From a virus, in the IMG/VR virus record IMGVR_UViG_3300006751_000018, positions 1 to 50,561 of that record: 50,561 bases of DNA; one strand, 5' to 3'. Under the pieces are notes generated by a model. That model saw only the letters and a list, made by a program, of their open reading frames with translations, did no database searches and was not told the origin of the DNA. This document shows, piece by piece, positions 19,022-50,561 of this stretch. The position numbers and the translations under genes were made by a program. Position 1 is the stretch's first letter; every line of letters begins with the position of its first letter.

Positions 19022-19552
19022 ATGGCCGATCCTACCGGAACCAACATGACAGCCGCGAAAGCCAAGGCGATTGACGCGACTGACCCTGCCCTCTACGAAT
19101 TACGTCTTTGCGAGCGTGTGCAACAGCTTCGCACAGACCACGAAAACCCAGTTCTCAGCACTGTGTCTGCGCCTGCGAGCACCACAACGACTCTCACAGA
19201 CGCACAGTCTGGCAGCGTGGTGCTTATGGCACCGAACGCAGCCGCAATCGTACTGCCTACGCCATCTGTTGGCCTGAACTACAAAATTGTTCTGACAGGC
19301 AACTACGCCTCGGCTGTATGCACTGTGAAAACAGCGACCACAGACGGTTCGGTGCATTTTGTCGGTGGCTGGACCTCTCCAGACTCTAACCACGGAGCGG
19401 CGTCCAACAACAGCAGCAATGATGCCATCACCTTCGGCGCTGATACAGAGGCGGGTGACAACATCGACCTGACCTGCATTAGTGCCACACAGTGGCTTGT
19501 GACCGGGTTCTCGAACGCGACGACGAACGGAATCACAATCGCTGACGCATAG
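19022..19552 (+). CDS. Decoration/virion surface-like protein
   Basis: 176 residues; AAGGAGAATTCTC precedes ATG 19022. After a short helical N-terminus, residues about 50-176 form a Ser/Thr/Ala-rich beta pattern with 'APNAAAIVLPTPSVGLNYKI' and 'ATQWLVTGFSN', close in style to the protein at the left edge of the window. Such domains occur in capsid decoration and tail surface proteins. Its place directly after the capsid genes favours capsid decoration, though this is inference. Confidence 0.6.
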   Translation: MADPTGTNMTAAKAKAIDATDPALYELRLCERVQQLRTDHENPVLSTVSAPASTTTTLTDAQSGSVVLMAPNAAAIVLPTPSVGLNYKIVLTGNYASAVCTVKTATTDGSVHFVGGWTSPDSNHGAASNNSSNDAITFGADTEAGDNIDLTCISATQWLVTGFSNATTNGITIADA

Positions 19553-41141: not shown

Positions 41142-41842
41142 TGGCTGGTTCAATCACAATAGCGTCTGCTCAGAACAACTCGATCACAATCAATTTCGGT
41201 GAGTCGATGACATCCGGGGTGTCCAGTATTGATGACTATGTGTTCGCTCCAGCAACCGGCTACAGGCAGGTTTACGCAACAGAGGTCGTGGCTGTTACCG
41301 GAACGCAAACGTACAAGGTGAAGGTGTCACCGGAGTTCGATGTTCCAGGCACATACACTGTCACATGCGCGAACGCGAGGGACGCTGGGAACGCTGCGCT
41401 CTCGACTAACAACAGCACGTACACGCTCGCGGGCCACCTACTTTTTCAGGTACCAGATGGCGAGGTTAATTACGTTGATAGCAGCAGCAATGCTCATAAA
41501 ACCGGCAACTACATCGGGGTGCTAGAGGCTTTAACGCTGGCTTTTGGAGACGCTATCCAGAAGACCGCTGGTAGACCTGTGACACGTTTGCGTAAAGAAT
41601 ACACATTGCAGACAGACAGTGTGATGTTGATCGAGACAACGCTTTCGTTTCCAGACAGCGGCTACGTCTATTTGGGCGGGCAAAAGTTAAAATATGCGTC
41701 TAAAGACACAAATTGTCTATACATGGACAATACAACTATCGCATCGGACCTTGCCGAGGGTAAACTAGCTGTAGAGCCAAGGAAGTCATTTGTTAGCGGT
41801 TCGGAGGTCCATTTAGATGTTAGATCCATACTCCCAGCTTGA
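41141..41842 (+). CDS. Virion protein with N-terminal Ig-like strands
   Basis: 233 residues; ATG 41141 overlaps the upstream TAA. The first ~95 residues show an Ig-like pattern ('SITINFGESMTSG', 'GTYTVTCANARDAGNAAL'), similar to bacterial Big-type domains. The rest ('LQTDSVMLIETTLSFPDSGY', 'YLGGQKLKY') is beta-rich and could anchor the fibre. It overlaps the next gene by 26 bp. Probably the base part of the long fibre. Confidence 0.55.
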   Translation: MAGSITIASAQNNSITINFGESMTSGVSSIDDYVFAPATGYRQVYATEVVAVTGTQTYKVKVSPEFDVPGTYTVTCANARDAGNAALSTNNSTYTLAGHLLFQVPDGEVNYVDSSSNAHKTGNYIGVLEALTLAFGDAIQKTAGRPVTRLRKEYTLQTDSVMLIETTLSFPDSGYVYLGGQKLKYASKDTNCLYMDNTTIASDLAEGKLAVEPRKSFVSGSEVHLDVRSILPA

Positions 41843-44800
41843 AACAGCAAGGCGTGACACAAGCATAACGCATTCTGAGCACTCGGCAGGCTACCCGCTA
41901 TCGTCTTTTGCAAAGATAGCAGATTGGTATGGGTTCCCGCTGCCCAGCGTAAATTGGAACAAGTCCGATTGGCGGGATGCTGTGAACGAAGCGGCATTCG
42001 CGGTACGAGGCCCAATGCCAAGTCTCTTCAAATTCCTTCGCGCAGCGTTGAAATCTCACGACACTGTTTTGGACGTGACTGTGAACACGTCGGCTGCTAC
42101 CTATGGCACTTATGCGCTATACCTTTCGTCTGGTAACTTTACGACATGTCACGTTGGTCGAATCGTTGAAATTACGAAGGCAGACGGAACGGTGCTGCTC
42201 TTTAAGAGTGACCCCACCCAAGACATCTCCTCACACAATACCCGGCTCGACCTGATTAAGTCGCCGTTCGGCAACGCGCAATATCTGGGTGCTAACTTTA
42301 CGGACTCTTCGCAGGCTGTGACGAGTGGCAGCTACAGTGTTCGGTTCATTCCATTTTTGATTCACGAGCGCAGCCCTGGAACAACATACAAACACGTATC
42401 GGACCCACTCGTCTTGGGCGACTACTATAAGCCTTCGGTTTTGGGAGCAAACGCTCACGAATTCGACATCGGGACTTGGGGAGGTCTACATTGCGTCGTG
42501 GAGGTAGAGCTTTTCCCTGAGCTTTTTAGCGTGCTACCTGCGTATCTTCTTGCAGACAATGAGCTTTCGGCATTATCCGTTGGGTACGGCGGGAAAGGTT
42601 ACAACGATGGCGTGATTGTGTTCAAGGGCGGTGGCGGCCAAGGTGCTCATGGAACCTACACAGTGGACTCCAGCGGAACAATTAACTCAGTGACTTTGGT
42701 CGATAAGGGCGCGGGCTACACATCAGCACCGACGCCTATCGTGATGCACTCCAAATTGGCATCGGCACAGGTTGTTTTGCCGGGGTCGAGTTACACCACA
42801 AATACTGGCGGCCCGGATGGTAAAGGGAGCTTGACCTTCACGGGTGGCGGTGGCTCTGGCGCAGTCGGGGAATACACTGTGAACGCTGATGGCGAAATCA
42901 CGTCTGCGACTATCACAGCGCAAGGAAAGAACTACACGTCTATACCAAAAATTGGATTCAGTGACCCAGGCGGCCTTGGCGTAAACGGGTTCGTGACCTG
43001 CAACTTAGAAAAAACAGTCGATATGGGGTCGGGGGCCTTGCGTGCGGTTACGATTAGCGACGGTGGTGGAAATTACGGCAACGCGCAAACATATCCGCTG
43101 ATTTTTAGGGGTGGTGGTGGCTCTGGCGCAGTCGGAACGGTCACGTCGAACTCTGGTGGAGAGATTGCGTCGATATCGACCAGCGCACTGGGAACGGACT
43201 ACAGAACCGCGCCTGAAGTGTATGTCGGGAGTTACGATAAATCGATATCTAGCACAATAACGATCAGCGACGGCGGGAGATGGTTGGACGCGCCAACAAT
43301 TTCGGTGACCGGCACAGGAGTTGGAAACTCGTATAGTGTGCTTTTAGACCGATTTTTAATTAAAAACGGTGGCTCGGGGTATGAGCCCAACAGCGAATTA
43401 AAGTTGAAATTTACAGGTGGCGATCACACTGTCTCGATCACAGGCATTGCCCCTCAAAATTTAGACGACTTCATGGGCCACACCGGAAGTCTTTCTGGCG
43501 AGGCGAATTATCAAGGCACGGTGGCTCTCGTTACGACTTCCGCAGCGCACCAGTTGACTGTTGGTCAGACCGTCCGAATTGTCGTGAACGACCCAAATTC
43601 GGGTAACGCTGGTACAGTCAGTTACTCTGGCTCTCTCGATACAGTCGAGATGAGGGTACTACCGGGCGACGGATTGCGTATCTCTTACCAAGAGGCCCTT
43701 ACTTTTTCAGCTTCGACGAGCGGAACGAACACTACGACTTTGAATATTGGGCACGACGGGCCTGTTCACTTTTGGCTAAGAAAACCTTTGAAAGAGGGTA
43801 CGGTTAAGGTGACGATCAACGGAACCGTCTTAGAGAAATCGACGGACGATGGCGAGGTTTACTCTACCTCTTCGGGGCAAAGCGAAAGCTTCACGCTTGC
43901 TCCGGGCCTCAATCCACAGTCGCTATCCTCCACAAAGCATTTCACGCACATAACGTCTGTAGTGATAGTTCAGACAAGCGCGGATTTATCCGGCGTTGGC
44001 ACCGATTACAATTTCCAGCCAAAAATCTCAGGCACACTGTTTAATGCTGTGAAGTCTGGCTCTAACAATCCATCCGCTAACCTCGGCACGGTCAGCGCAA
44101 CCTTGACCGCAATAAACGCCCTTACCGGATTTACAGCCACGCTGACCGGAGATTCAAAAGAGGCCGGTAGCATTCAGGAGTTGGATGGCCTCGCGCTGCA
44201 ATCTATCAAGAGCACGACTGTCACCATTACGAACAAGAAATCTTCAACCAAAAAGGCGAAGTACACTTCTGGTGTGAATTACACTGTGATGCGGCTGACC
44301 GACAACACAAGCCAGTTCTACATATTTAAGCCGTCATGGCAAAGCCAAGGCACACCATTCAGTAGCGCAGTAACGTACACTGGAAGCGTGTCGACGGTTT
44401 GGAAAAAGCCGACTGTGTACGCCCACACGGACAGCCTTGGAAGGCTGGTTAGGCTCGATGTTCAGGGTCACGGGCACGGATATGTAAAGGCTCCGACGGT
44501 CACGCTTGAATCTGAAGATGTAATTCAAGACCCTCTGAACCAGAGCCCACCCAAAACAGTAACATCCGAGGCAGTCCCTCAAAATCACATTTTAACTCAG
44601 GTATCCGCAGCACCCAAAGAGCCCCTTGAGCCACAGTTTGACATTGTAGACGAGTTGGCAGAGGCAGGTTTAACGTACAAAGATAACGAGTTTCTGAAAA
44701 CTGGGCTTGGTAAAAAGGAAAACCGAGTCAAAATCTTCTTAGACCGGCAGGGCCAAGCAACAATTCAGGCTGGCCAACTCGCCTGGATAAAAAACGTATC

Positions 44801-47800
44801 TCGCTACGACGCTGCGAAAAAAACATTCAAGCGCCATCCAGTGAGTTACCCATTTTTCAAATTTGTCTCGACTGGCCAAAAGGTGCCAAACAAATTTAGT
44901 GACACATCCGAGGCTCTCTACCCGCCAGTAGGAACAGAGGTGCGTATCTCGCAGAACCCATCGCAAGATATTAAAAATCTTACTGGAAGAACAGGCACGG
45001 TCGAAGCGTTCGCAACGGTTGCTGGCGATGAGGACTACAAGTATCTGACACTCATTGAGACTGAATTTGGTGACCAAATTACCTCTCACGAGTTTTTCGA
45101 CGGCGGGACGGCAAGCGTGTCGGTTTCGTGGCGGCATCCAGACACTTTTGGAATTGGCGATTTAAAATCTATCGAGCAGTATGAGTCACCTCACGGCCTA
45201 GTCGATAACTGCTTGTCTTTTGTGCTTAATCCCGACTACCACAAGCTGGCTTCTGTCTCAGGTTGCTTCGCGACATTTGAGTTACCTTACGATAATTCGG
45301 CTGGCGAAACGATGGTGTTCGAGGGTACAACCGCGTGGGGTATGGCTCCTGCCCTCGCCACTATTTATACTGAGGGTCGCGCCTGTGAAATTCTCGCAGA
45401 ACCTCAAGGCCGTGTGTCCTGGGCGGGTGGCGGTGAGAAGGCGGGTATATCGAGAAGCTTGCTCACTGACCCGACCTTGAGTGTTCGGCTATCATCAGAC
45501 ATTCACTTACCTGAAGCCGGTGGATGGGCTTACATCACCGGGCACTCAGTGTCGGGCTTGAATGGTCGAGTGTACGTGTTGCCGACGAGCCGCAGAGATA
45601 CTGTGCGTTTACGGGACTTTAACAAAGATAGCCTGTCGATTACGACTGAAGGCACGGGTGGTTACTTCTACGCGCCCGGTGGGCACGGCCTAAAAGCGCA
45701 CTACAAGATTTCAGACGATGGGAAGGGCCAAATAAGCAGTAGCTCAAAATGGGTTTTGGAAAAAAATGGAGGTACTTTCCGTACCGCACCCTACCTTTTT
45801 CCTGAAAAGCCGTCCGAGCCTCGCGATGACTATCGTGGGCCGTCTATGGGGTGGCCAACAGGTGTAACTACCCTCGCAGACGGGCTCGCGCACACGTATG
45901 CGACCGTCGGATACAGCCACATCACAGGTGGCCTCGCTTTCACTTCTGATGCCTCAGCAACGACGGCTCGCGGTGGTGACCTGCTCTTTCATGGTGGAGG
46001 CGGTAAGCCAGTCGAGATCGAAGAAGTCGTAGCCGGTGGAGGATGGATAGCTGGCATTAAGACGCAGTCCGCGCACGGTCTTTCTACAAACGACTACGTG
46101 CGGATTCGCAATGTCCGAGACGCCAATGGTGAACCCGTCGATATAATTAATCGCAAGGTTAAGGTGACGGTTGTCTCAGCCACTGCATTCATGGTTTTCG
46201 ACGCAACGCTGGGCACAAATACTTTTATTGCCACGGACCTTTCGACTGATGACTTCGTGGGTGGAGCCGTCGATTTGGTAGCAGAGCAAGCGACAGGCAC
46301 GTTTACGATTGGTGACGATGGTTCAGTCTCAGGCGCGACTGTGACGACGGCGGGAGGCTACTATTCCTTTCCACCGGAAATAACTGTGCCCAAAAACTCA
46401 ATTGCTTATAAAAGCACACTTTATAAACTCAGCGCAGATGAAAATGTTGTGGACGACGCAATGTTTGGTTCGGCTAACGCGCCGCTCGCGCCACCACACC
46501 TCACGTCAACGCTCCTTTACGATGCAGCCATCGCTGCAACCGTCGAAAAAGCTGCTTTCTCTGTGACACTGGCGGCTAACGCAGCAGAAAACACAAACAC
46601 GAGCGACTCTTCCACCATTCACGTTACTGAAACTTCCCAAAAAGATGTCAGCGTTTCTTTGAGTTGGAACGATGGTGAGGTAACTCATTTCTGGGGAGCG
46701 AAGGTTCCAGGCGGCTGGCAAGTGACAGGAACACCTTCAATTACGAATGCTGGCTCGAACTACGTTTCTGAAAATAACTTCGGTGGCTTTCAGGGGTTTT
46801 TAAAGGTCGAGGGCGGTGGCAATCAGGTAATTGAGCACGCAAAAATCATGTTCAGAATTAGCAGTGGCACCATTGCGGAGCTTGCTGTTGTCCATCCTGG
46901 CCTCGGTTACACTTCCGCGCCAACGCTTTCGATGCCGGACGGCTCCGAAGGTGCTGGCGCAACTTTTTCAGCATCTATCCAGTCGAACACGATGGCCAAT
47001 ATGGCTGAAAAGATAGCCGACACCATCAACAACGGATGCCTATATCCCGTTTTAGCACTCACAGAGGATAAGGAGCAGGAAGGTTTTGTGTGGCACAACG
47101 GAGCAAACCCGCCGTCATTTAATGGCATCGGCTTTAGCGCGACCGATAGCGTGAGCGGTAGCAGCGGTTTCGGTGAAGTGCTTGTGAAAGTTACGCCCAG
47201 CGGCCCAACGGTCCCGAACGAGGCTAAGATGAGCGTCTTAGGGCCAGGCGGTGCTTTGGCAAAGAACTTCGCGGTAGGCGATAGCTCGACAGGATTCGTT
47301 GGGCTAGGGCACTACGGTCAGTGCATTATAACTCAACCAAATTGGTCACTGGTTAGCCAAGGCACCGACACGTCTCTTAGTAAGGTCATTTTCGACCGAA
47401 CGCACGCTGACGGACTGACAGAATCACATACGCTCTATTTGACTGGCGGTGGTGGCTCGCCGGTCGAGGCAGAGAGCCCGACTAGACCAGCAGGAATGGA
47501 GTTTTCGGCACATCTCCGCGAGGGTGTGATTAGAACCAACTCTGTGACTGGCGAGGTTGAGGAGCTTTTGGGCCACGCGGACGTTCCAAATTCAGGGACG
47601 CCATCAACTAAATACGCATACCCGATTTATTTGCAGTCAGCGTACGACCGCTCGCTAATGGACTACCTGTCCGCGCTCGTGCCTGCTGGAATTCAAGTTG
47701 TAGTAACGCATCGCGACTGTGACTCAGATAGCTACATCTCGCCAGCCGATGTTGTTGACGCGCTCTCGCTTGCGCCAACTGCACACGGTAACCCGTTCGT

Positions 47801-47963
47801 TACCAAGAAGGGGCCACAATTGGTCACCGAGCCTTTCCATGCCGGAGCAAAGTCCGGGCAGGCTAGTCAGGAAGACCATTCCGACGAGAAAGATGACGAA
47901 AATTTAAACCCGGATGTCCCGCCACCTTGGTCCGGTCCAACCCCAGGCGGCCCAGGAATCTAA
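41817..47963 (+). CDS. Giant tail fibre-like protein
   Basis: 2048 residues; ATG 41817 with GGAGG (41804-41808) upstream. The N-terminal ~250 residues look like a baseplate-attachment part. Then come glycine-rich repeats, 'GGGGQGAHGTYTV', 'GGGGSGAVGEYTV', 'GGGGSGAVGTVTS', each followed by 'dG-x-I-x-S-x-T/S' and 'Y-[TR]-[ST]-x-P'; this is the Gly-rich repeat found in many fibres. Residues 707-713 (KHFTHIT) share a module with the sheath. Later domains include 'SAHGLSTNDYVRIRNV' and a 'YTSAPTLSMPDG' repeat. The C-terminus is acidic/Pro-rich. It probably forms a long host-binding fibre. Confidence 0.7.
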   Translation: MLDPYSQLETARRDTSITHSEHSAGYPLSSFAKIADWYGFPLPSVNWNKSDWRDAVNEAAFAVRGPMPSLFKFLRAALKSHDTVLDVTVNTSAATYGTYALYLSSGNFTTCHVGRIVEITKADGTVLLFKSDPTQDISSHNTRLDLIKSPFGNAQYLGANFTDSSQAVTSGSYSVRFIPFLIHERSPGTTYKHVSDPLVLGDYYKPSVLGANAHEFDIGTWGGLHCVVEVELFPELFSVLPAYLLADNELSALSVGYGGKGYNDGVIVFKGGGGQGAHGTYTVDSSGTINSVTLVDKGAGYTSAPTPIVMHSKLASAQVVLPGSSYTTNTGGPDGKGSLTFTGGGGSGAVGEYTVNADGEITSATITAQGKNYTSIPKIGFSDPGGLGVNGFVTCNLEKTVDMGSGALRAVTISDGGGNYGNAQTYPLIFRGGGGSGAVGTVTSNSGGEIASISTSALGTDYRTAPEVYVGSYDKSISSTITISDGGRWLDAPTISVTGTGVGNSYSVLLDRFLIKNGGSGYEPNSELKLKFTGGDHTVSITGIAPQNLDDFMGHTGSLSGEANYQGTVALVTTSAAHQLTVGQTVRIVVNDPNSGNAGTVSYSGSLDTVEMRVLPGDGLRISYQEALTFSASTSGTNTTTLNIGHDGPVHFWLRKPLKEGTVKVTINGTVLEKSTDDGEVYSTSSGQSESFTLAPGLNPQSLSSTKHFTHITSVVIVQTSADLSGVGTDYNFQPKISGTLFNAVKSGSNNPSANLGTVSATLTAINALTGFTATLTGDSKEAGSIQELDGLALQSIKSTTVTITNKKSSTKKAKYTSGVNYTVMRLTDNTSQFYIFKPSWQSQGTPFSSAVTYTGSVSTVWKKPTVYAHTDSLGRLVRLDVQGHGHGYVKAPTVTLESEDVIQDPLNQSPPKTVTSEAVPQNHILTQVSAAPKEPLEPQFDIVDELAEAGLTYKDNEFLKTGLGKKENRVKIFLDRQGQATIQAGQLAWIKNVSRYDAAKKTFKRHPVSYPFFKFVSTGQKVPNKFSDTSEALYPPVGTEVRISQNPSQDIKNLTGRTGTVEAFATVAGDEDYKYLTLIETEFGDQITSHEFFDGGTASVSVSWRHPDTFGIGDLKSIEQYESPHGLVDNCLSFVLNPDYHKLASVSGCFATFELPYDNSAGETMVFEGTTAWGMAPALATIYTEGRACEILAEPQGRVSWAGGGEKAGISRSLLTDPTLSVRLSSDIHLPEAGGWAYITGHSVSGLNGRVYVLPTSRRDTVRLRDFNKDSLSITTEGTGGYFYAPGGHGLKAHYKISDDGKGQISSSSKWVLEKNGGTFRTAPYLFPEKPSEPRDDYRGPSMGWPTGVTTLADGLAHTYATVGYSHITGGLAFTSDASATTARGGDLLFHGGGGKPVEIEEVVAGGGWIAGIKTQSAHGLSTNDYVRIRNVRDANGEPVDIINRKVKVTVVSATAFMVFDATLGTNTFIATDLSTDDFVGGAVDLVAEQATGTFTIGDDGSVSGATVTTAGGYYSFPPEITVPKNSIAYKSTLYKLSADENVVDDAMFGSANAPLAPPHLTSTLLYDAAIAATVEKAAFSVTLAANAAENTNTSDSSTIHVTETSQKDVSVSLSWNDGEVTHFWGAKVPGGWQVTGTPSITNAGSNYVSENNFGGFQGFLKVEGGGNQVIEHAKIMFRISSGTIAELAVVHPGLGYTSAPTLSMPDGSEGAGATFSASIQSNTMANMAEKIADTINNGCLYPVLALTEDKEQEGFVWHNGANPPSFNGIGFSATDSVSGSSGFGEVLVKVTPSGPTVPNEAKMSVLGPGGALAKNFAVGDSSTGFVGLGHYGQCIITQPNWSLVSQGTDTSLSKVIFDRTHADGLTESHTLYLTGGGGSPVEAESPTRPAGMEFSAHLREGVIRTNSVTGEVEELLGHADVPNSGTPSTKYAYPIYLQSAYDRSLMDYLSALVPAGIQVVVTHRDCDSDSYISPADVVDALSLAPTAHGNPFVTKKGPQLVTEPFHAGAKSGQASQEDHSDEKDDENLNPDVPPPWSGPTPGGPGI
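42849..42868 (+). repeat. Fibre glycine repeat, copy 1
   Basis: GGTGGCTCTGGCGCAGTCGG, identical to 43116-43135. It encodes the GGSGAVG core of two neighbouring glycine repeats in the giant fibre protein. Confidence 0.8.
43116..43135 (+). repeat. Fibre glycine repeat, copy 2
   Basis: Identical over 20 bp to 42849-42868, in the next repeat of the fibre, pointing to recent in-gene duplication. Confidence 0.8.
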
Positions 47964-47981
47964 ATTTATTTTCGCTCTACT

Positions 47982-48025
47982 GAGAGCCAATTTGGCCTCG
48001 TGGATAATTATTCTTATTTTTTTTG
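47982..48025 (+). terminator. Weak terminator-like hairpin after giant fibre gene
   Basis: GAG(A)GCC (47982-47988) can pair with GGCCTC (47994-47999) around AATTT, followed by a T-rich stretch (48010-48024). The stem has a bulge and the T-run is not adjacent, so this is only suggestive. Confidence 0.3.
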
Positions 48026-48036
48026 TTGTAAAGGGC

Positions 48037-48066
48037 TTGACAACACCCCCATCGCTGAGGCATAAA
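48037..48066 (+). promoter_or_regulatory. Candidate sigma70-like promoter before amidoligase
   Basis: TTGACA (48037-48042), 18-bp spacer, CATAAA (48061-48066), in the 138-bp gap after the fibre gene. TAAA stands four bases before the -35. Starts ~10 bases later would give a short leader to ATG 48102, which has GGAG upstream. Confidence 0.5.
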
Positions 48067-48101
48067 GGTGAATGTGACGAACTTGAGATGGAGATTTCAA
48101 A

Positions 48102-49151
48102 ATGACTAAGAAACTAAACGTAATGACTGACCTCGCAAACATCTTCTTCGGAGTAGAAGTAGAGATGTCCATGCCTTCCCGTTATTCTGGTACTAGCCTG
48201 TTGGCAGACGGCCTTCGTGAGGCTGGCGTGCTTCGGGCTCAGGGCTCTTCTTGTGCTCACGATACACAGGGTCGTGTCTGGAACATCGTTTCAGATTGCA
48301 GTGTTAGCGGTTCCGTCGGCTTCGGTGGCGAGCTTGTGTGTCCACCTCTTACTGTTGAAGATATCGAAACACTTCAGACTGTGCTTCGCGTGATGCGACG
48401 TGGTGGATGCAAGTCCAGTGCTCGTCTAGGCTGTGGAATTCACATTCACATCGACGGTGCTTACATGACTGGCGCGGACCATACTGTGAATCCGCTTAAC
48501 GGTCGACGCACATCGTCGGTAGGGTCGGACATGCAAGCGGTTATTCGTTTACTTAAGACAGTTCACGCTCACGACGCTCAGATGCAGGCGATGCTTGGTA
48601 ACTCGACTCGTCGTAACTATTGCCGACCCATTTCGGAGTCCTACGTGAAGCGCATGAAAGGCGTTAAGAGCTTCGATCAACTGAAGGTTGCTATCGTCGA
48701 TGATATGAATGGTGGTCGAGGCACTGTCGGTCGACCTTCCGCAAATGACCGAGCACACTTCAATAACGTGCTTCGTCGCGCCGACTATCAGCTTGGCTCA
48801 CGCTACCCAAGCGCCCGCTATGCTGCTTTGAATCTTTGTCCGCTCGCGTCTAAAGGAACTGTCGAGTTTCGACTCTTCAACGGCACTTTGCACGCTGGGA
48901 AGGTTCGCGCTTACATCCTGTGGGCACTCGCAATGGCTCACTTCGCAAAGAACGCTACTCGCGTATCCTCGAAGCAAAAGGCAGTATCCAACAATATGAA
49001 GTACGATTGCCGCACTTGGCTTAACCGTCTCGGAATGATCGGTGACGATTTCAAGACTGCGCGTCTTCACCTCGTGGGCCGTAAGTCGCTTCTGGAGGGT
49101 AACTCCTCTCGCGCTGGACACAACAACAACGAAACTCAATTGGCTGCGTAA
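48102..49151 (+). CDS. Amidoligase (GS-like, Amidoligase_2 family)
   Basis: 349 residues. It shows the Amidoligase_2 pattern: FGVEVEM (16-22), GGELVCPPL (75-83), GIHIHID (112-118), a R-Y-x-A-L-N segment (239-244) and TVEFRLFNGTLHAGK (253-267). These enzymes, of the glutamine synthetase fold, are predicted to use ATP to join a carboxyl to an amine, making peptide-type bonds or tags. Next to it are two gamma-glutamylcyclotransferase-fold genes, the pairing known for such systems. Substrate is unknown; peptidoglycan peptides or protein tags are candidates. Own promoter and downstream hairpin suggest a separate unit. Confidence 0.8.
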   Translation: MTKKLNVMTDLANIFFGVEVEMSMPSRYSGTSLLADGLREAGVLRAQGSSCAHDTQGRVWNIVSDCSVSGSVGFGGELVCPPLTVEDIETLQTVLRVMRRGGCKSSARLGCGIHIHIDGAYMTGADHTVNPLNGRRTSSVGSDMQAVIRLLKTVHAHDAQMQAMLGNSTRRNYCRPISESYVKRMKGVKSFDQLKVAIVDDMNGGRGTVGRPSANDRAHFNNVLRRADYQLGSRYPSARYAALNLCPLASKGTVEFRLFNGTLHAGKVRAYILWALAMAHFAKNATRVSSKQKAVSNNMKYDCRTWLNRLGMIGDDFKTARLHLVGRKSLLEGNSSRAGHNNNETQLAA

Positions 49152-49157
49152 CGTCAC

Positions 49158-49220
49158 ACCCCTGGCTGACCGGCTCGCAGCCTTTACTCCATCCCGGTCA
49201 GCCAGCCCCTCGGGGTTATT
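49158..49220 (+). terminator. Hairpin terminator candidate after amidoligase
   Basis: CTGGCTGACCGG (49162-49173) pairs perfectly over 12 bp with CCGGTCAGCCAG (49194-49205) around a 20-nt loop; ACCCC (49158-49162) and GGGGT (49212-49216) could extend the stem across a bulge. A short TTATT follows. It separates the amidoligase from the cyclotransferase genes. Confidence 0.65.
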
Positions 49221-49229
49221 CTAAAGCTG

Positions 49230-49258
49230 TTGACAGCGTGACCATTATTTGAAACAAA
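49230..49258 (+). promoter_or_regulatory. Weak promoter-like site before cyclotransferase pair
   Basis: TTGACA (49230-49235) with TAAA four bases upstream, as at 48037. The -10 is poor (AACAAA at 49253-49258), and a start there would leave almost no leader before ATG 49266, so this is tentative. Confidence 0.3.
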
Positions 49259-49265
49259 GGACATA

Positions 49266-49862
49266 ATGAAAGATTATCCAAAATACTACTTCGCCTACGG
49301 CTCGAACGTGATGTCCGAGCAAATGGCTAGAAGATGCCCTAGCGCGACGTTCGAGCAGGCTGGCTACTTAGATGGTGCAAAACTCTGCTTTCGCGGTTAC
49401 AGCGGTGGCTGGGGCGGCGCAGTGGCTACTCTGTCCAGGGGCTCGGGGCGCGATGTTGTGCCGGGAGTTCTTTACAGCATGACCACCAAGGACTGGAAGC
49501 TGCTGGATGCTTTCGAGGGTTACCCATGGCAGTACACTGCCATAAACCGGCTGGTTCGCTTACAGAACGGGGCGGTGGTTCGCGCCAGAACATATATCCT
49601 GGCAGACCACACTAAGCTGGTTGCAGAACCGGCCACCGTTTACACACAGCAGATTGAGCGCGGGCTCGCCAGTCGTGGCCTTTGCTTCGACCATGTGTCC
49701 GATGCGGCCATTGAGAGCCATTACGCCCTTAAAGCGCGTGTCAACGAGGTCGGCCAGTTCCAGTTAGAATTTGAAAAGGACCAGCGGTTTTCACGCAAAG
49801 GTGTCCGAAACAATGTTTGGCGAGCCTCTACGGGTCGAGCCATTTTCGCAAAAGGGAGATAG
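49266..49862 (+). CDS. Gamma-glutamylcyclotransferase-like protein
   Basis: 198 residues from ATG 49266, with AAAGGAC upstream. FAYGSN (9-14) is the substrate-binding loop of the GGCT fold, and E84 in 'DAFEGYP' matches the catalytic Glu of the family. GGCT enzymes release 5-oxoproline from gamma-glutamyl-amines. A C-terminal ~60 residues beyond the core is basic and unfamiliar. It sits just after the amidoligase and before a second GGCT-fold gene, so it may undo or trim bonds made by the ligase. This role is inferred from known gene pairing. Confidence 0.8.
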   Translation: MKDYPKYYFAYGSNVMSEQMARRCPSATFEQAGYLDGAKLCFRGYSGGWGGAVATLSRGSGRDVVPGVLYSMTTKDWKLLDAFEGYPWQYTAINRLVRLQNGAVVRARTYILADHTKLVAEPATVYTQQIERGLASRGLCFDHVSDAAIESHYALKARVNEVGQFQLEFEKDQRFSRKGVRNNVWRASTGRAIFAKGR

Positions 49863-49864
49863 AT

Positions 49865-50245
49865 ATGAAGCACAAAGTTTTTGTTTACGGGACGCTCAGG
49901 CGGGGGCTTGGCAATCACGGTTACCTGGCTAATAGCAGACTTGTTGGCGAGGCGACGATCAACGGTTACGAGATGTTCGACTATGGATACTTTCCAGCGG
50001 TCGTCCAGGGTAACGGGGTCATTCACGGGGAAATTTACGAGATAAGCGATAAGACGCTGAAGCAATTGGACACGCTCGAAGGTCATCCCAAGTTTTATCT
50101 TCGGATGGAGGAAAAGACTTGGGCTGGCCAGTTTGTTTGGCTCTACACGATGCAGGCGAGCAAGGTCGAAGGCATGACTCGTGTGACCAGTGGTGACTGG
50201 CTCGAACACAGGCGAACCCGACCAGAAAGTACAGTATTCCATTAA
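49865..50245 (+). CDS. AIG2/GGCT-like protein
   Basis: 126 residues from ATG 49865, which is 2 bp after the previous stop with GGGAGAT upstream; an in-frame extension to 49817 lies inside the previous gene and is not favoured. VFVYGTLRRG (5-14) is the AIG2/GGCT loop, and E72 in 'DTLEGHP' is the likely catalytic Glu. This is a smaller member of the same fold as its neighbour. Two such proteins in a row beside an amidoligase suggests different substrates or steps. Confidence 0.8.
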   Translation: MKHKVFVYGTLRRGLGNHGYLANSRLVGEATINGYEMFDYGYFPAVVQGNGVIHGEIYEISDKTLKQLDTLEGHPKFYLRMEEKTWAGQFVWLYTMQASKVEGMTRVTSGDWLEHRRTRPESTVFH

Positions 50246-50265
50246 TTTGTGATGAGGTGAGAATC

Positions 50266-50561
50266 ATGGGAAGTAGCGTTATGAAATCAAACTCGAACAT
50301 CGTGACTGATGTCGATACCGCAAACCGATGGCTGCAAGCCGCTCAGGGCCGGGGAAACCTAGTCTCGACGGTCGCTGGACTCAGCCACCTACCACCGTTC
50401 AAGGCGCTGGCAATTCAGCGTGTCGAGGTGAATCCCGATCAGGCTGTCGGTGATGTCTACTCGATACCCGGACCCGGCAATAAATTCGGGCTATCAAAAC
50501 ACATTTTGGGCAAGCTCTTCGCGGCGAAGCACGGCTCCATCCTTAAGAGCTACCGCAAAGA
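50266..50561 (+). CDS. Unrecognised protein, 5' part only
   Basis: ATG 50266 with GAGGTGAG upstream; the frame is open for 98 codons to the window edge. Visible residues include 'DTANRWLQAAQGRGNLVS', 'GLSHLPPFKALAIQRVEVNP' and 'VYSIPGPGNKFGLSKHILG'. The 'V-G-D-V-Y-S-I-P-G...L-S-K' run looks like a conserved motif, but I cannot name the family. It follows the cyclotransferase pair and may begin another functional group. Confidence 0.6.
   Translation, partial: MGSSVMKSNSNIVTDVDTANRWLQAAQGRGNLVSTVAGLSHLPPFKALAIQRVEVNPDQAVGDVYSIPGPGNKFGLSKHILGKLFAAKHGSILKSYRK

Follow-up and report, generated by a model that had tools for sequence, protein, structure and literature searches.

Three adjacent genes in the window, the whole 50,561-base stretch of phage DNA analysed here, encode an amidoligase of the glutamine-synthetase fold and two cyclotransferases (GGCT1 and GGCT2) of different types. 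In our preferred reading, to which we assign a probability of about 50%, the three genes form one cassette, with a ligase that makes gamma-glutamyl (or similar) amides and two GGCTs that remove them. Amidoligase–GGCT cassettes occur in many phage genomes, and the linkage in phages has already been published; the dual-GGCT layout is a little-described subtype of these known sets. Judged from its predicted proteins, the window represents a third layout beside the gut and podovirus types, with one GGCT of each type. Together with GGCT–GGCT fusions found in other viruses, this layout makes the question narrower: there are probably two kinds of gamma-glutamyl linkage that the chemistry either makes or encounters.

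Genomic setting of the cassette

The window, a virus record of IMG/VR, is 99.9% identical to positions 24,852-75,412 of a 78,499-base twin contig, IMGVR_UViG_3300025118_000006. This contig repeats its first 208 bases at its other end, but for one mismatch, and so probably represents the whole of a circularly permuted genome of about 78.3 kb. The phage is a myovirus by its recognisable genes, which encode a portal, a head protease, a major head protein, a tail sheath, and a baseplate. Its structural proteins have only distant kin, with the best head and sheath matches at about 25-30% identity to Thermus, Exiguobacterium, Bordetella, and Bacillus phages. In single-sequence scans of viral contigs with each of the three cassette proteins, the twin contig was the sole match.

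The three genes are same-strand ORFs at 48102-50245, as the first-pass annotation had placed them, and they lie directly past the last tail-fibre-like gene. The latter (41817-47963, just 5' of the cassette) encodes a 2048-aa protein with many Gly-rich repeat-like stretches and no domain above the Pfam cut-off. On the 3' side, the twin genome continues with a phrog_13782 protein (function unassigned), an SbcD-like phosphoesterase/nuclease (PF00149), and a protein labelled SbcC-like by sequence inspection only. The cassette lies at the border between the late structural genes and the recombination module, and opens the run of recombination genes. From gene position alone, namely this border and a promoter-like site in front, we infer expression early or in the middle of infection.

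The promoter-like site, TTGACA-N18-CATAAA, is found on the plus strand at 48037..48066, about 35 nt 5' of the amidoligase start. The pattern TTGACA-N16-18-YATAAW, picked after the site had been seen, has this single match in the window when both strands are searched, and a general promoter scan of 47500-50561 returned five other sites against 1.7 expected. As a sequence, the site already noted in the first-pass annotation is a plausible promoter, which by itself shows no regulation. The same annotation had combined it with a strong hairpin into a suggestion of tuned expression. The hairpin is real: it occupies 49162..49205 on the plus strand, in the gap between the amidoligase and GGCT1 genes, with perfect 12-bp arms (49162-49173/49194-49205) and a 20-nt loop that is not terminator-like. 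Its folding z-score is -3.07, and none of 200 shuffled sequences was equally stable. The twin genome contains 15 such inverted repeats of at least 9 bp, where mononucleotide shuffles give 4-10. A role as a conserved control element was rejected, since the corresponding gaps of relatives vary and hold no consistent hairpin, and a search of Rfam with the hairpin gave no match; tuned expression is thus unsupported.

The position of the cassette also bears on its target. It adjoins the tail-fibre-like gene, and the gut-phage cassette lies just 5' of terminase and portal, as might be expected if the phage modified its own virion or packaging proteins. We consider this quite unlikely. In the window, a separate promoter-like site precedes the cassette and recombination genes follow it, a position that makes virion proteins the less likely target, and the podovirus cassette is located among replication genes (PMC5498523).

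The ligase and the two cyclotransferases

The amidoligase gene (48102..49151, plus strand) encodes 349 residues that match PF12224 with E=1.4e-31 (110.7 bits, cut-off 22) and phrog_2443, 'amidoligase enzyme', with 1.5e-55. Residues E19, E21, R58, D65, E77, H114, N244, E255, R257, and H264 are invariant in 54 amidoligases, so that the catalytic and putative metal-site positions checked (E19, E21, E77, H114, E255, and R257) are intact. On the basis of the fold, the conserved acidic and His residues define a putative metal site. The AlphaFold model (pLDDT 83.7, pTM 0.85) was compared with known structures by Foldseek, and every match at E<=0.001 is a ligase of the GS/GCS fold. The matches comprise gamma-glutamylmethylamide synthetase (GmaS), gamma-glutamylcysteine synthetase (GCS), glutamine synthetase (GS), and a predicted glutathione synthase of the same fold; the TM-scores of the significant matches are low, 0.28-0.43 over the query, and the likeness is at the level of fold only. 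Ligases of the GS fold use ATP to join a carboxylate to an amine. To our knowledge no PF12224 member has a demonstrated activity, and the substrate and bond type of the amidoligase are for this reason deduced from the fold.

Between the window and the twin contig, the amidoligase gene differs by eight synonymous and two non-synonymous codons, a pattern that fits a functional protein. Of the 51 differences between the two sequences, ten fall, mostly as synonymous changes, within 93 bases of this gene (48990-49082), suggesting a short recombination tract.

GGCT1 (49266..49862, plus strand, 198 aa) is a PF06094 protein (5.1e-12) of the YGSN type, like human GGCT, with a helical C-terminal extension. 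Human GGCT is matched both by sequence (2.5e-12) and by the structural model (Foldseek E 4.8e-13, rmsd 2.6 Å, 31% identity), and residues Y11, G12, S13, N14, D81, and E84 are invariant in 18 sequences. The YGSN motif, the catalytic Glu (E84), and the fold of human GGCT are therefore all present. GGCT2 (49865..50245, plus strand, 126 aa) is of the YtfP/GGACT type, with a YGTL motif that fits the YG(T/S)L pattern of this group, and matches PF06094 with 1.2e-27 and E. coli YtfP with 2.9e-24. Y8, G9, and the catalytic Glu, E72, are invariant in its phage relatives; E. coli YtfP has no Glu at the position aligned to E72. The start of GGCT2 is likely the ATG at 49865, which has its own Shine-Dalgarno sequence and lies 2 nt past the GGCT1 stop, in preference to the TTG further upstream, at 49817.

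The GGCT tree separates the two proteins with full support (100/100). GGCT2 groups with YtfP and the GGCTs of podoviruses, and GGCT1 with the YGSN-type GGCTs from phages that carry an amidoligase, where its place is unsure because of a long branch. Larger GGCT proteins occur elsewhere, as B. subtilis YkqA (2qik) shows; the N-terminal part of this 285-residue family member, which we take to be a two-domain GGCT protein, aligns with GGCT2, and YkqA also matches the GGCT1 model. Thus, the first-pass annotation's GS-like amidoligase is borne out by profile matches, structure model, and intact catalytic residues, the catalytic Glu that it assigned to each GGCT is found as E84 and E72, and its two distinct GGCT proteins belong to separate subfamilies.

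Cassette layouts in other phages

A gene neighbourhood survey, which the first-pass annotation had proposed, revealed strong amidoligase–GGCT linkage beyond this phage. With an alignment of the amidoligases from the window and five phages as query, 160 loci were collected among viral and genome contigs; almost all belong to gut-type phages or prophages. A GGCT gene lies within 1.5 kb 3' of the amidoligase in 150 of the 156 testable loci, and the same linkage holds when clusters are counted (93 of 97 at 90% identity, 17 of 18 at 70%). In gut Bacillota phages the amidoligase is paired with a YGSN-type GGCT only (17/18 sequence clusters). About ten loci carry two GGCTs, both of the YGSN type wherever checked. 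An apparent clade without GGCT (L020, L049, L078, and L082) was rejected for L082, where the first profile had missed a YtfP-type GGCT; in this locus the YtfP-type GGCT comes after a class II GATase.

Examples of this gut type are the 'Ca. Heliusvirales' phages and prophages of Bacillota, including Terrisporobacter phage TPDSL_ph1 and Faecalibacterium phage Taranis. As in the window, their amidoligase is followed by a YGSN-type GGCT, and their amidoligases are the closest to that of the window in the annotated phage collection, at about 30-38% identity. In contrast to the window, they usually have one GGCT, or two that are both YGSN-type in the loci checked, and lack the YtfP type; many have an extra amidoligase-like pseudoenzyme, and the members inspected also have a DUF4314 gene and a zinc-ribbon gene. 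The extra protein, of ~220-240 aa, is encoded 5' of the amidoligase in about 86 loci of this first survey (about half), for example at L004 3975-4652, L007 3929-4657, and L006 4085-4801. It resembles the centre and C-terminus of the amidoligase, has no N-terminal catalytic part, and may be a pseudo-amidoligase partner. The DUF4314 gene is also 5' of the amidoligase (L004 4636-4857), and the zinc-ribbon-like protein, of ~68 aa, overlaps the end of the GGCT gene (L004 6475-6681, L007 6512-6715).

Since the first alignment was biased towards gut phages, we rejected these relatives as the full picture and ran the survey again starting from GGCT2, and the dual layout then came to light. The query of YtfP-type phage GGCTs yielded 79 further loci, which were then scanned for partner proteins. 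About 32 of them hold a podovirus-type amidoligase, most together with a COOH-NH2 ligase, a GATase, and an ATP-grasp protein, and none of these about 32 holds a YGSN-type GGCT. By contrast, where an amidoligase of the window's broader type (score >150 bits) lies near the YtfP-type GGCT in IMG/VR, a YGSN-type GGCT domain is also present in 17 of 17 loci (L192, L201, L205, L207, L209, L210, L214, L219, L220, L221, L223, L229, L236, L237, L242, L252, and L266), or 16 if the near-identical pair L209/L210 is counted once; here the YtfP type is present by construction and the YGSN type is not. The idea that two GGCTs are unique to the window's phage was accordingly rejected, as two-GGCT loci were found in both surveys.

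The two GGCTs form one polypeptide in six of the 17 loci (L192, L201, L214, L229, L236, and L242), which come from divergent viruses. The YGSN-type domain is first and the YtfP-type second, both pass the Pfam cut-off, and neither has lost its catalytic Glu. One of the six, L192, has its fused gene about 2.4 kb past the ligase. The window has the dual layout, with one PF12224 ligase, one YGSN-type GGCT, and one YtfP-type GGCT, the last two as separate genes with no fusion between them. It shares these three parts with the dual loci (L219-L223, L237, the six fused loci, and others), and its order, amidoligase, YGSN type, YtfP type, is the usual one among them, with departures in L205, L209/L210, L252, and L266.

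Because of the 17 dual loci and the six fusions, the comparison suggests a single pathway for the ligase and the two cyclotransferases. If they were instead independent accessory genes, neighbours by chance, with GGCTs serving a separate purpose, linkage in divergent lineages and GGCT–GGCT fusions past the ligase would be hard to account for, and we regard this as very improbable. In its favour, GGCT proteins are widespread in both phages and cells, and both types can be found together elsewhere: the YtfP-type and YGSN-type genes of Bacillus phage G, gp513 and gp514 (L184 2586-3438), overlap, with no PF12224 match in the two neighbouring proteins tested, and three IMG/VR loci (L258, L261, and L262) have the two types as adjacent genes, with no amidoligase in the searched stretch.

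The gut sequences group together with support (96/87) in the amidoligase tree, and the window is the weakly placed sister of this clade on a long branch (92/92); the dual loci, the fused loci, and the GATase clade sit on an unresolved backbone. Dual cassettes may predate those with a single GGCT, an order that the tree does not prove. With this backbone and the window as a long branch beside the gut clade, a common origin of the dual cassette is unsupported.

The podovirus cassette of RIO-1, LUZ24, and PSA-HP1-like phages (PMC5498523, PMC3890496) has the PF12224 amidoligase and the YtfP-type GGCT in common with the window. It differs in the additional COOH-NH2 ligase (PF14395), class II GATase, and ATP-grasp protein, and in the absence of a YGSN-type GGCT. 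No match to PF14395, PF13522, or PF08443 was found at E<=1 in the 78.5-kb twin genome; for the ATP-grasp this negative is weaker, as the PaP4 ATP-grasp protein itself has no Pfam match. Because the tested podovirus partners, including a RimK-like ATP-grasp, are absent from the twin genome, the window's cassette is no member of that type, although it may work like it.

Iyer et al. 2009 is reportedly the founding analysis of amidoligase–GGCT systems. In the literature searched, whose scope did not include that paper, we found no description of a dual YGSN and YtfP layout or of a GGCT–GGCT fusion beside an amidoligase, which is weak evidence that these are novel, and no assay report for any amidoligase–GGCT cassette. 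That the amidoligase and GGCT genes form a phage cassette, the central proposal of the first-pass annotation, agrees with the profiles, structures, residues, and linkage elsewhere.

Possible chemistry and targets

GGCT-type enzymes act on gamma-glutamyl groups whose alpha-amine is free and release them as 5-oxoproline. In the preferred reading, the GS-fold ligase would use ATP to make a gamma-glutamyl (or similar) amide bond on an amine, and both GGCTs would release such groups as 5-oxoproline. If the ligase attached a Glu to an amine and then extended it by another Glu, its product would hold both kinds of bond, which would explain two types of cyclotransferase. GGCT1 would remove gamma-Glu joined to an alpha-amino acid, for instance the second Glu on a short gamma-Glu chain, and GGCT2 would remove it from a side-chain or polyamine amine, so that together they would trim and then fully erase the ligase product. 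This division follows the substrates of the two families, gamma-glutamyl compounds for GGCT and gamma-glutamylamines for GGACT (PMC4919911). Alternatively, the GGCTs would first remove a gamma-glutamyl linkage already present in the host, and the ligase would then put a new one in its place. Against the preferred reading, two GGCT types are not always needed: judging by their gene content, gut phages have one or two of the YGSN type and podoviruses one of the YtfP type.

An analogous logic is found in the butirosin pathway, where a ligase adds gamma-Glu and the GGCT-fold BtrG removes it. The ligase of this natural-product pathway, BtrJ, is an ATP-grasp enzyme, unlike the window's GS-fold ligase, and the likeness is one of analogy only.

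The cassette would likely act early or in the middle of infection, on a host component. Small molecules are one tentative option: the cassette would attach gamma-glutamyl groups to polyamines, amino acids, or glutathione-type peptides and set these free again, thereby tuning nitrogen, redox, or polyamine pools during infection. The Foldseek matches to gamma-glutamylmethylamide synthetase, gamma-GCS, and GS point this way, as does the closeness of GGCT1 to human GGCT. The substrates of human GGCT and GGACT are small molecules, and a protein or wall target would depart from them, which counts against the preferred reading. GS-like gamma-glutamylpolyamine synthetases exist as well (PMC11841054). 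However, a ligase with two removers of one bond would run a futile cycle unless they were split by time or specificity, and no further pathway gene was found beside the cassette.

Peptidoglycan stem peptides contain a gamma-D-Glu linkage, and remodelling of host peptidoglycan or envelope peptides, leading to superinfection exclusion, would give the preferred reading a named target and not replace it. We hold this possible, though doubtful. For related cassettes, the guess made in print is a cell-envelope peptide: superinfection exclusion was put forward for the seven-gene 'peptidoglycan modification cassette' of RIO1-like podoviruses (PMC5498523), the superinfection/cell-wall hypothesis was taken up again for prophages of C. 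clostridioforme and for OM43 phages, and an amidoligase–GGCT cassette has also been described in LUZ24-like phages (PMC3890496). It is a hypothesis for which we found no test in the literature searched, and a search of the apparently complete twin genome for three members of the seven-gene set, the COOH-NH2 ligase, the GATase, and the RimK-like ATP-grasp, found none of them. Furthermore, since the three proteins have no obvious export signal by eye, a wall target would be a cytoplasmic precursor. The dual and fused GGCT cassettes offer compact proteins for testing the superinfection-exclusion idea.

A more elaborate form of the preferred reading, which we think unlikely, combines these steps into a write-trim-erase system that switches a host function during infection. 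On an amine of a host protein or metabolite, the ligase would build up a short tag of gamma-glutamyl units, GGCT1 would trim Glu-Glu linkages, and GGCT2 would remove the last Glu, with the two erasers, fused in some viruses, working as one machine.

Elsewhere in the phage, differences between the window and the twin contig cluster at 19189-19310 of the window, within an ORF at 19022-19552, and include two compensating one-base indels. The twin genome also carries adjacent Dam-type and MT-A70-type DNA methyltransferase genes (L173 3314-4365).
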